Source of the DNA: Halomicronema sp. CCY15110
GTDB taxonomy: Bacteria; Cyanobacteriota; Cyanobacteriia; Phormidesmidales; Phormidesmidaceae
Assembly: GCF_016888165.1 (NCBI RefSeq)
Contig: NZ_JACSWC010000289.1
Span: 1-42,544, forward strand
Length of the DNA: 42,544 nucleotides
Reading direction: 5' to 3'
Shown here: in pieces, positions 15,560 through 20,116 of the stretch
How positions within the stretch are numbered: the first letter of the stretch is position 1
Layout: every line of letters starts with the position of its first letter
Position numbers and translations under genes: made by a program
The notes under the pieces: model-generated
What the model saw: only the letters and a program-made list of their open reading frames with translations
The model's database searches: none
What the model was told of the DNA's origin: nothing

Positions 15560-16627
15560 TTAAGCTGGTGCCGATCGCCGACTAATCACCGCGATGGGGC
15601 CGCCCCCCGGGGGGCCTTGATGTTCGCTGCCACCGGAAACGTAAATCATCGGGTCTTGCACGGCTGCGGCGATCGCGGCCCCGACGACGGCTCTGGCCAT
15701 GCGGGTATGGTTGATGTCTGAGTCATCCAGCATGGTGTGACGGCAGCCCAAAATTTGTCCCGACGGGTCGGCCTCTGCTTTGGCAAAGATATTGACGATG
15801 CGATCGCGATCCTCCTCGCACCCGGCACTGGCGATCGCCCGCTGCACTGCCGCTACATCCAGCGCGTGCGCCATCACACTGTGACCGATCACGTAGTCAC
15901 TGTGGGAATTGGGCGCATTGCCCAACACTAAAATTTCGCAGTTCTGCAACTCGACCCCAGCCGACGTGGAAGCCACCGACGAATAAAGCGCATAGTTGTG
16001 GCAGATGTCCGCTGCGGTGAGATCCGCCAGCATAATTTCGCCCAGCGCGACGGCAACACCTAAAGCCGCCGCTCCCCGGGAGTAGGCCATTGATTTATAG
16101 CTGTCTTGGGTGATTACGGCCTCGCCTTGGCTCTGGCGCGAGGCCGTGATCAAAGGGCATTTAATCTGCACGAAGTGAACGTCCTGAGGCGTCAGGTGAG
16201 CGGCCGCGATCGCGGCGGTCACGCCCTCAGCCACGACTTTCACCATCGCCAGCGTTCCGATCTCCTCCACTGCAAAATCTCGCGTGTGGTGAACGCCCAG
16301 CGCCAACCCAGCATGAGTCGGCCCTGTCAGGCCCTCGGTTTGGCGGGTAAAGACGGTCATGTGGGGACTCAACACGCCCTCGGTGCCCCCCGACATGACG
16401 AAGACAATTTGCGCCGTGCGTTCTTCTCCAATGCGCGGGCGCAGGTAATGTTGGAGGGTCGCTACGGCGAACCCGCGCGTGAAGTCATTGACGCAGCCAT
16501 TGCCCTCGGTTTTGCCCAGGATGGCAACGATGGTCTGAGGATCGAGCTGTTGGCTTTCGATCAGGTGGTGCAAGCCACTCAAGTCATCGGGACGGCTTTG
16601 GGGAATTTTGAAGACACCTACTTTCAT
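15560..16627 (-). CDS. ring-opening amidohydrolase (cyanuric acid amidohydrolase/barbiturase family)
   Basis: A 355-residue enzyme of three homologous domains, each with a Lys-Ser pair. These are LGKTEGNG (Lys39) with VMSGGTEG (Ser79), IKCPLI (Lys156) with [10 protein letters not shown] (Ser183), and [10 protein letters not shown] (Lys283) with [15 protein letters not shown] (Ser331). [11 protein letters not shown] (296-306) is also diagnostic. These residues form the catalytic and metal-binding site of AtzD/barbiturase enzymes, which hydrolyse cyanuric acid or barbituric acid by ring opening. I cannot tell the substrate. It overlaps the upstream RraA-like gene by ATGA, so they form an operon, and there is no other visible triazine or pyrimidine catabolic gene in the window. 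Confidence 0.9.
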
Positions 16628-17259
16628 GAGTCCGACGCGGCAAATCCCAAACTTTGCAGCATTTGCTCAACTTTGGCGTGATGGTTAGCCTTCCACTCCG
16701 CTAAGGATTGGGCGGCATCTTTGTCCATGCGTTGTTTCGCAAACAGTCGAATATCTTCCTGCTGTGCCGCTGGAATGACCGCGATCCCTTCTTCGTCAGC
16801 GACCACAATATCGCCCGGATGCACCTGTACGCCGCCGCAGGTAATGGGCTGGTTGAGGGTGCCCAGGGCTTGCTTTTTACCCGGCACCGGCGACAGCCCG
16901 CGGGCAAACACCGCAAATTCGGCGGCTCGCACTTCTGCCACATCGCGAATGACGCCATCGATGACGAATCCGGCAATGCCCCGCTGCTGCGCCGTGGCAC
17001 ACACGTTGCCGCCCGACATAGCGTAATCGGTATCGCCCGCTTGCACCACAATGACGGCACCGGGTTCAGCGCGATAAATCGCCGCATGTAGCATCAGGTT
17101 ATCCCCCGGCGGACAACTTACGGTGTAGGCGGGGCCAGCGATACGAGGAATCTGAGGCCACATTTCGCGAATGCCCAGATCCATAAATTGCGATCGCTCT
17201 AAGCCCGCATCGGCATAGCTCGTGGGAGAAATCGCCGCAAATCTTGAGTAATCGTTCAT
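16624..17259 (-). CDS. RraA-family aldolase/decarboxylase-like protein
   Basis: A 211-residue protein of the RraA / 4-hydroxy-4-methyl-2-oxoglutarate aldolase family. The substrate and divalent-metal site [13 protein letters not shown] (97-109, with Asp101, Arg105 and Asp106) is complete. The second conserved block, [18 protein letters not shown], is intact too. Family members include RNase E inhibitors, aldolases and oxaloacetate decarboxylases, and the sequence does not settle which. The start ATG 17259 has a strong AGGGAGG about 9 bases upstream. The gene is first in an operon with the ring-opening amidohydrolase (4-base overlap), so it could act on the amidohydrolase product, which is an inference. 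Confidence 0.85.
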
Positions 17260-17402: not shown

Positions 17403-19181
17403 TTACGGGCAGTCGATCGTGCCGGTGCCGCCATCCAGCCGGACAGTCTGCCGCGATTGCAGGCGATCGCGCCCCCGTTGCAACACCACGGTAGGCAAGC
17501 CATATTCCCGAGCCACCACAGCGCCGTGGGACAATTGCCCGCCGGTTTCGGCAATCAGCCCAGTTACTCCCAGTTGTCTCAGGCCCGGAATTTCACTGGC
17601 TTTGAGATAGGGCACGACCAAAATCGTGGCGGGTGGCAACGCTCGCAGATCGGGCACGGCTTTGAGCCAGCGCAACGCGCCCCGCACCTGACCAGGACAC
17701 ACGGGTAATCCCACCAGTGATGATGCGTACTGGGCCTCTGCGGCCAAGGATGGGGCGGTGCCGGGCAGTGCGGGCGTCTGGTCTCGCGGCAAGTCAGAGG
17801 GTGGGGGAATCAGCGGGCGACTGTGCAAGAGCCAGAGGCGATCGCCGTCAAAGCTCCATTCCACCATTTGCGGAATGCCCTGCGATCGCCGTTCCACATG
17901 GCGGGCCAAAAACGCCACCTCTTGCAGCAACCGCTGGGGCGTGTCGCCCGCCCCTTGCACGTCTAACGAGAGGACATCGGGAATCGCCCAACTGTCAGCC
18001 GCTGTGACATCGTCTGGCAGGTCATTGTCTTGGAGCATCACGCGAAAGCGCTCGGGGTCTTGTTTCCCGGCGGTAACCTGCGCCGCTGGACCCAGCACCG
18101 CTTCGATCAGCACCGCATCGCCCTGACTGGTGAACGGATCGCGACTGGCGGCGACACCGCTGCATAGTCCTTGCACCTGCTGCTGCACCACCACCGCCAA
18201 GCTACCGTCGGGCAAGCCGCGATCGCGACGATATTGTCTCGCACTGGGGCGATCGTAGGTGCGAAAGCACTGATTCATCGCCGCGTACAGCGCCTCTTGG
18301 GAGGTCAGGTCAGCACTCCCCGCATATTGTCCGGCACTGGCAGCCAGGGCAGGCCGATCGCCCACCATCGAAGCCCGCACCACCACGGGCGACGCCACCG
18401 AAGGGCGAGTAATGTCTAGCAGCATGGCGGGGTCATCGCCAGCGGGCAGCCCATAGCCTGTCGGCACCGGATAGCCCCACGCATTTAATTCAGCCAGCCG
18501 CGCCGCTTTGCCCCCAACGGTAGCGGCATCCAGCGATGTGTCTAGTGACAGCAGGGCGCGATCGCTACGAAAAAAGCCAAACAGCCGCCGCGATTCCAGG
18601 CGTGAAGCGGGATTGGGCAGCGCTAAATCTTCGGGCTGTTGGTCATAAATCCAGGCGATGAGGCCACTGAGACAGGCCGTTAGCAAGATCTGCATCCCCT
18701 GGGCTTGGCTCAAGGCCGTAATCACGGGGAATAGAATGAGCACCAGCAAGCGCCCCTGCTGCCGTTCGCGAAAGATGGTGAACCCCAGCACACTGATGAG
18801 CAGGGTCAAACCCGCCGCAATGGGATTGTGGGCGATCGCCCCCGACAGCACACTCGTCGTGCCCACTGCTTTGGCCGCCCAGTAGCGCCCCATCACCAGG
18901 GCAATCAGCGCCACGATTTCCCACGTGGGGTCGGTGGCAAAGTAATGCCGGGCCAGCAGCACCGTCCCAATCCCTTTGGCCGCTTCGAGCAAGAGCGCCA
19001 GTAACCCCGCCGGAGTGCTCAGTTCAAACGCGGCGGGGACACCGATTGCTGTCGGTGGCGGAGCGGGCGATCGCGCACCGGCCACCGCTGCCGTCGCCCA
19101 TTGACTCAGCGGCAATGCCCCCACCAACGGACAGAGGGTAAAAATCAGCAGGGCTCCCCAAACTTGCGTCAGCGTCAGCAT
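17403..19181 (-). CDS. fusion of a PlsY-like membrane domain with a PEP-synthase-like module
   Basis: A 592-residue protein. The N-terminal part (about 1-190) has five or six hydrophobic segments and the layout of PlsY acyl-phosphate glycerol-3-phosphate acyltransferase, for example LLALLLEAAKGIGTVLLA. The family motifs GNPGATN and GFKGGKG have no clear match, so that activity is doubtful. The middle (about 215-480) is a pyruvate phosphate dikinase N-terminal (ATP-grasp) domain, from TVGGKAARLAELNAWGYPVPTGYGL. The end (about 490-592) is the PEP-utilizing mobile domain, with GGQLSHGAVVAREYGLPTVV and candidate phospho-acceptor His552. The PEP/pyruvate-binding TIM barrel of a full PEP synthase is missing. 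Known analogues exist in cyanobacteria, but I cannot assign the substrate. Confidence 0.8.
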   Translation of the reverse strand: MLTLTQVWGALLIFTLCPLVGALPLSQWATAAVAGARSPAPPPTAIGVPAAFELSTPAGLLALLLEAAKGIGTVLLARHYFATDPTWEIVALIALVMGRYWAAKAVGTTSVLSGAIAHNPIAAGLTLLISVLGFTIFRERQQGRLLVLILFPVITALSQAQGMQILLTACLSGLIAWIYDQQPEDLALPNPASRLESRRLFGFFRSDRALLSLDTSLDAATVGGKAARLAELNAWGYPVPTGYGLPAGDDPAMLLDITRPSVASPVVVRASMVGDRPALAASAGQYAGSADLTSQEALYAAMNQCFRTYDRPSARQYRRDRGLPDGSLAVVVQQQVQGLCSGVAASRDPFTSQGDAVLIEAVLGPAAQVTAGKQDPERFRVMLQDNDLPDDVTAADSWAIPDVLSLDVQGAGDTPQRLLQEVAFLARHVERRSQGIPQMVEWSFDGDRLWLLHSRPLIPPPSDLPRDQTPALPGTAPSLAAEAQYASSLVGLPVCPGQVRGALRWLKAVPDLRALPPATILVVPYLKASEIPGLRQLGVTGLIAETGGQLSHGAVVAREYGLPTVVLQRGRDRLQSRQTVRLDGGTGTIDCP

Positions 19182-19336: not shown

Positions 19337-20116
19337 ATGACGACAGCATTGATTACCGGCGCTTCTGGCGGTATTGGCGCGGTGTTTGCCGAACAGCTCG
19401 CTGCACGAGGCCATGACCTGGTGTTAGTAGCGCGATCGCAGGATAAATTACAGGCGATCGCCGAGCAACTCGCCGCCACCCATGGCGTCACCACCACCGT
19501 CATGGTGCAAGATTTACTGGCGGCGGGAGCCGCAGCTCAGATATTCAACCAACTGGCACAGCAAGACATCCAAGTCGATCTCTTGGTCAACAACGCTGGA
19601 TTTGGCTCCTACGGTGAGGTGGCCGACGGTGACTTGCCGACTTACCTCAACATGATTCAGCTCAATGTGTCGGTGCTGGTAGATCTGACCCATCGAGCCC
19701 TACAAGGCATGCAGCAGCGGCGATCGGGCAGCATTCTCAACATCAGTTCCATCGCGGCCTTTCAGCCGATGCCCTACTTTGCAGTCTATGCGGCGACCAA
19801 ATCCTTTGTGCTGAGCTTTAGCGAAGCCTTGTGGTACGAATGTCAGCCCTACGGTATCCAGGTGCTGGGAGTCTGCCCTGGCCCTACCGAAACCCAATTT
19901 TTCAAAACGGCGGAATTTCCTGACGGGTTAGCCTCCTCTGAGCAAAGCCTAGCGGCACCAGAAGTCGTGGTCAAAGAAGCGCTACAAGCATTGGAAAAAG
20001 GACATTCCAATGTCGTCACTGGCGGCCTAATGAATCAAATCATCGTGAATAGCGGCCGATTTTTGCCTCGAGAAGCCCTCACAAAATTTGTTGGCGAAAT
20101 GTTCAGCACTACATAG
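19337..20116 (+). CDS. short-chain dehydrogenase/reductase (SDR)
   Basis: A 259-residue classical SDR. The cofactor loop is TGASGGIG (7-14), followed by VLVARSQDKLQAIAEQL, NNAGFGSYG and NISSIAAFQPMPYFAVYAATKSF, which holds the Ser and the YxxxK catalytic residues. VCPGPTETQFF is the typical downstream block. A helical C-terminal extension (GHSNVVTGGLMNQIIVNSGRFLP) suggests the DltE/YqjQ-like subgroup. The basic residue after the first strand (ARS) points to NADP(H). The start has AAGGAAACG upstream. The substrate is unknown. Confidence 0.9.
   Translation: MTTALITGASGGIGAVFAEQLAARGHDLVLVARSQDKLQAIAEQLAATHGVTTTVMVQDLLAAGAAAQIFNQLAQQDIQVDLLVNNAGFGSYGEVADGDLPTYLNMIQLNVSVLVDLTHRALQGMQQRRSGSILNISSIAAFQPMPYFAVYAATKSFVLSFSEALWYECQPYGIQVLGVCPGPTETQFFKTAEFPDGLASSEQSLAAPEVVVKEALQALEKGHSNVVTGGLMNQIIVNSGRFLPREALTKFVGEMFSTT

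Follow-up and report, generated by a model that had tools for sequence, protein, structure and literature searches.

The closest described relative of the protein considered here is RPH from Listeria monocytogenes (5fbs; 5hv1), in which an ATP-grasp domain comes first, a swivel His domain is C-terminal and a PEP barrel is absent, as in the short protein described below. In this enzyme, Lys22, Arg117 and Thr136 are needed for resistance and the phosphate is carried by His825, while variants at Arg117 and Thr136 retained ATP pyrophosphatase activity (PMC4844700). PEP synthase and pyruvate phosphate dikinase (PPDK) likewise share their ATP-grasp and swivel His domains with the short protein, but in these enzymes the His domain lies mid-protein, followed by a C-terminal PEP/pyruvate barrel, and there is no membrane domain. 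The membrane portion of the protein instead resembles the glycerol-3-phosphate (G3P) acyltransferase PlsY (5xj5), with which it shares a hydrophobic N-terminal layout and a match to PF02660. The G3P and acyl-phosphate site of the A. aeolicus enzyme comprises Ser35, Thr41, Arg45, His92, Lys104, His177 and Asn180 (PMC5700162).

The window, the whole stretch of 42,544 nucleotides that was analysed, comes from the cyanobacterium Halomicronema sp. CCY15110, whose genome assembly amounts to 6.15 Mb in 443 contigs. It encodes a short protein in which PlsY-like, ATP-grasp and swivel domains are joined (Table 1). Pfam matches to G3P_acyltransf (residues 17-181; 36.6 bits against a cut-off of 24.1), PPDK_N (residues 263-457; 80 bits) and PEP-utilizers (residues 516-587; 57.6 bits) were obtained, the latter two above their curated cut-offs. 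The PPDK_N match covers profile positions 100-309, the second part of the PPDK ATP-grasp domain, and because the GGK motif of the first half is present (Lys225), the gap in the profile reflects a subdomain that is reduced in length but not absent. His552 aligns as the swivel His within an LSHGA motif, no Pfam match to a PEP/pyruvate barrel was found in the protein, and the sequence stops after the swivel domain. In these respects the original prediction of a PlsY-like membrane domain fused to ATP-grasp and mobile domains, lacking the barrel, was borne out, as was its failure to see the PlsY motifs, since GSGNxGATN and GGKGxAT are both absent in alignments with A. aeolicus PlsY and with the canonical PlsY that this genome also encodes. 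Its designation of the fused module as a PEP synthase needs refining, as the module is closer to RPH, the best PDB match both for the short form (3.6e-21) and for a profile of its full-length relatives (6.3e-75). The short protein differs from RPH in bearing an N-terminal membrane domain, and it has neither the central acceptor domain nor a number of the catalytic residues. Five other species share its uninterrupted reading frame, with 63-85% identity, and it is thus neither a chance occurrence nor the product of a frameshift; assembly error as the source of the short length was ruled out on the same grounds, with six genomes sharing the short form without stops. An AlphaFold2 model of the short form, built from a four-sequence input, reached a pLDDT of 35 and a pTM of 0.23, values too low for the model to be of use.

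Table 1. Features of the short gene, its surroundings and related loci. Positions without a locus handle (L) refer to the window.
Feature	Position	Strand	Basis or remark
Short PlsY-like/ATP-grasp/swivel protein	17403..19181	-	592-aa ORF, ATG start; conserved across the genus (6/6 species)
PlsY-like membrane domain, residues 1-195	18597..19181	-	Pfam PF02660; hhalign to canonical PlsY; residue counts
ATP-grasp domain, residues 205-458	17808..18569	-	PF01326; alignment to RPH 5fbs; residue counts
Pro-rich linker, residues 459-486, replacing the acceptor domain (~415 aa)	17724..17807	-	MAFFT alignment
Swivel (PEP-utiliser mobile) domain, residues 487-592	17406..17723	-	PF00391
His552 codon (CAC)	17526..17528	-	Asn (AAT) in 4/6 orthologues
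Short-chain dehydrogenase, divergent neighbour	19337..20116	+	Adjacent in 6/6 species
Cyanuric acid amidohydrolase	one of the overlapping pair 15560-16627 and 16624-17259	-	NCBIfam CyanAcHdlAtzD, 497 bits, cut-off 360
RraA-like gene, overlapping the amidohydrolase gene	pair 15560-16627 and 16624-17259	-	
Protochlorophyllide reductase/haem-oxygenase-like loci	L050 6792-7772, L051 8558-9607, L052 10059-11108; L055 5646-6359, L054 6466-7209		
Full-length fusion loci	L057 (G012), L012 (G000:C330)		

Three genes of the window genome match PF02660, namely a canonical PlsY (174 bits), the short gene and a full-length fusion on contig C330. The full-length proteins, of roughly 990 residues (about 950-1015 in general, 950-1050 within the window's taxonomic family), are composed of a PlsY-like domain, an ATP-grasp domain, a middle acceptor domain of ~415 residues and a swivel domain. 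Searches of relatives, the order and the phylum recovered one such fusion in nearly every genus of the window's taxonomic family, and a match at E <= 1e-60 in 38 of the 49 Cyanobacteriia genomes of the phylum sample compared with none of its 68 other members, a division of the sample read from its listing order; plasmids yielded only distant PEP synthase-like matches. No paper naming or describing the fusion was found in the open literature searched, and a functional description of this family, widespread as it is in Cyanobacteriia, was likewise not found there. The short form is far more restricted, being present in all six species sampled in the window's genus and in none of the other sampled genomes of the order and phylum. 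Candidates from G014, G027 and G084 were not counted as further short forms; they are split or frameshifted full-length genes, seen as pieces in broken or partial frames. Besides the short gene, every sampled species of the genus has an intact full-length copy, which in the window genome is that of C330. The short protein thus derives, by a shortening specific to this genus, from a cyanobacterial dikinase fusion with PlsY-like and RPH-like parts. With full-length proteins in the same taxonomic family it shares 50-60% identity over residues 1-458, as well as the swivel domain. Unlike the short form, full-length members such as that of G012 and the C330 paralogue possess the acceptor domain and intact GTGN..YHGG, RSSAxxED and LSHGA motifs.

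The acceptor domain was lost whole, with the cut made at domain edges. The short protein aligns with its full-length relatives up to residue 458 (SRPL/I) and resumes at residue ~487, the start of the swivel domain; alignments with relatives from the order and the phylum cover residues 1-458 and 480-590, between which the relatives have ~400 residues, and in a MAFFT alignment the 28-residue Pro-rich linker stands where G012 has residues ~464-878. The full-length profile matches L. monocytogenes RPH with one contiguous stretch spanning RPH residues 514-866, which comprise the C-terminal half of the rifampin-binding domain and the swivel domain, so that the lost domain is, as judged by profile comparison, a homologue of the rifampin-binding (acceptor) domain of RPH. 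The Arg666-Glu667 pair of RPH (PMC4844700) is not clearly conserved across the cyanobacterial full-length proteins in the profile alignment, suggesting that their substrate, and perhaps the second half-reaction, may differ from those of RPH. No stand-alone acceptor domain able to act in trans was found in the window genome, where the only such domain is that of the full-length paralogue.

The residues of the ATP site have been retained in part. Lys225, Arg269, Glu441 and Arg455, equivalent to Lys22, Arg117, Glu297 and Arg311 of RPH, are kept in all six short forms. The ED pair of the ATP-grasp domain, invariant in the full-length proteins (24/24), is lost from every short form (Asp275/Arg276 in the window protein), and the position equivalent to Thr136 of RPH, Ser or Thr in 24/24 full-length proteins, is Ala or Gly in 6/6 short ones (Gly288 in the window protein). 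In the swivel domain, the T, D, G and W of the YTDxGW motif are lost in all six, with YTDAGWxP having become YLKASEIP in the window protein. The swivel His itself (CAC) persists in the window protein and in that of its nearest relative, G001, and is replaced by Asn (AAT) in the other four orthologues, a pattern that the tree accommodates by three losses or by one loss and one reversal. In the membrane domain, hhalign relates the full-length family to PlsY with a probability of 95.6%, with a common loop-1 position and the GTGN of the family aligned with the GSGN of PlsY. Ser35 is replaced by Thr, Thr41 by Ser, Arg45 by Tyr and His92 by Arg, while motif 3 (His177 and Asn180) has no alignable equivalent and the register of Lys104 is ambiguous. 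The family has instead a motif of its own, GTGN..SAAFYHGG, of which the GTGN and YH are present in 24/24 full-length proteins and 0/6 short forms; the window protein has TAIGVPAAFEL at this location, and even the Thr kept by the full-length family at the Ser35 position is gone. The original prediction placed the loss of acyltransferase motifs in the short protein. It does lack Arg45, His92, His177 and Asn180, but the full-length family is already without these PlsY-type residues, so PlsY activity is not what the short form has lost. As for the membrane-anchored phosphotransfer module that had been proposed, the membrane-anchored fusion stands, but active phosphotransfer is not supported, given the deletion of the acceptor, the loss of the ED pair and Thr136-equivalent, and the Asn of four orthologues.

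In a tree of residues 1-458, the six short forms constitute one clade (100/100) within the clade of the window's own taxonomic family (100/99), grouping with G012, G015 and G011 (96/97). A separate clade (100/100) unites the full-length copies of the genus; it lies outside that family, beside G052 of another family, with support of 91/94 that falls just below the usual threshold. The short genes of four species (G002, G003, G004 and G005) have neighbours in common with the full-length gene of G012, which places the short gene at the ancestral locus, the same locus as that of its full-length orthologue. Most simply, the resident orthologue would have been shortened where it stood and the other, full-length copy would have come from another lineage, and was thus probably acquired; less simply, this copy stems from an old duplication lost elsewhere.

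The divergently oriented short-chain dehydrogenase beside the short gene, for which the best NCBIfam model is mycolate_SDR (below its cut-off), does not adjoin the full-length gene in G012 and is a candidate functional partner of the short protein. The cyanuric acid amidohydrolase and RraA-like pair lies directly downstream of the short gene in the window and occurs beside it in only two of the six species, the window species and G001, the same two that keep His552, a co-occurrence that may be due to shared ancestry alone. In G002-G004 the surroundings of the short gene include a light-dependent protochlorophyllide reductase (TIGR01289, 566 bits), and in G004 and G005 the full-length copy adjoins a gene for a haem-oxygenase-like protein, recognized by eye with no model match; a pigment-metabolism context is possible. 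A conserved neighbour of the full-length family that could hint at its substrate was sought across genera and none was found.

Pairwise dN/dS of the short gene is about 0.06-0.28 where dS is finite, several dS values being saturated, and these low ratios indicate that the gene is under selection. When mean dN was compared between the short gene and its full-length paralogue across the same five species (codon bootstrap), the ratio was 1.09 (0.83-1.39) for the PlsY-like domain, 0.88 (0.69-1.10) for the ATP-grasp domain and 3.15 (2.14-4.71) for the swivel domain, the last evolving faster in the short form. The PlsY-like and ATP-grasp domains are thus as constrained as their counterparts in the paralogue, and it is these parts of the protein that have been maintained. 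This undiminished constraint on the membrane and ATP-grasp parts points to a membrane-anchored nucleotide-binding pseudo-dikinase, and it is probable, on the residue and constraint patterns described, that the short form is a selected protein of this kind, a scaffold or regulator of a partner that would no longer complete the phosphotransfer cycle. Following the RPH scheme, ATP would phosphorylate the swivel His in the full-length family, and this residue would then swing to the acceptor domain to phosphorylate a substrate that is presumably handled at the membrane. The short form has given up that domain and family-invariant active-site residues, and the same genomes have a second, full-length copy. 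Nucleotide binding may serve as a signal by which a partner is scaffolded or regulated. The most natural partner would be the full-length paralogue, engaged through the PlsY-like membrane domain, although this is a guess. A fuller proposal is offered only tentatively: the short form would be a membrane pseudo-dikinase peculiar to the genus, one that binds nucleotide but transfers no phosphate, controls the intact paralogue, and arose once a second copy allowed the resident gene to shed its substrate domain.

Some catalysis may nevertheless persist. ATP-dependent self-phosphorylation or hydrolysis is possible in the window species and its nearest relative, which retain the His in addition to the four ATP-site residues kept throughout; the RPH variants noted above retained pyrophosphatase activity (PMC4844700). 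Phosphotransfer in trans, in which the ATP-grasp domain charges His552 and either the paralogue's acceptor domain or some separate acceptor takes up the phosphate, would apply to these two species only; it draws on the same retained residues and on the intact acceptor domain encoded in the same genome, but is unlikely given that the His has become Asn in four of six orthologues though the rest is conserved, that the ED pair and Thr136-equivalent are gone even where the His is kept, that the swivel domain is accelerated, and that the window genome offers no stand-alone acceptor. Somewhat less probable still is a membrane domain that functions as an acyltransferase or lipid-binding enzyme of altered substrate with the remainder as an ATP-sensing appendage, for while the relationship to the PlsY fold and the undiminished constraint on this domain favour it, the family does not conserve Arg45, His92, His177 or Asn180, the short form has lost even the family's own motif, and a canonical PlsY is present in the genome. 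That the short gene is a decaying remnant heading for loss, redundant beside the second full-length copy, is improbable, since the lost catalytic motifs, the accelerated swivel domain and the extra copy are outweighed by the selection data: the gene is intact throughout the six species, at identities as low as 63%, its dN/dS is low, and its PlsY-like and ATP-grasp domains evolve no faster than those of the paralogue.

The comparison reveals that most of the sampled photosynthetic cyanobacteria have a large membrane-anchored dikinase, one that automatic annotation would call PlsY or PEP synthase, neither name being supported by its residues. The short form represents a natural experiment in the passage from enzyme to non-enzyme, with one domain cleanly removed, the active sites eroded, the rest still selected and the intact enzyme alongside. 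If the pseudo-dikinase reading is true, it gives a handle on the full-length fusion, whose membrane domain, derived from PlsY, may supply an RPH-type kinase with a lipid-like substrate.
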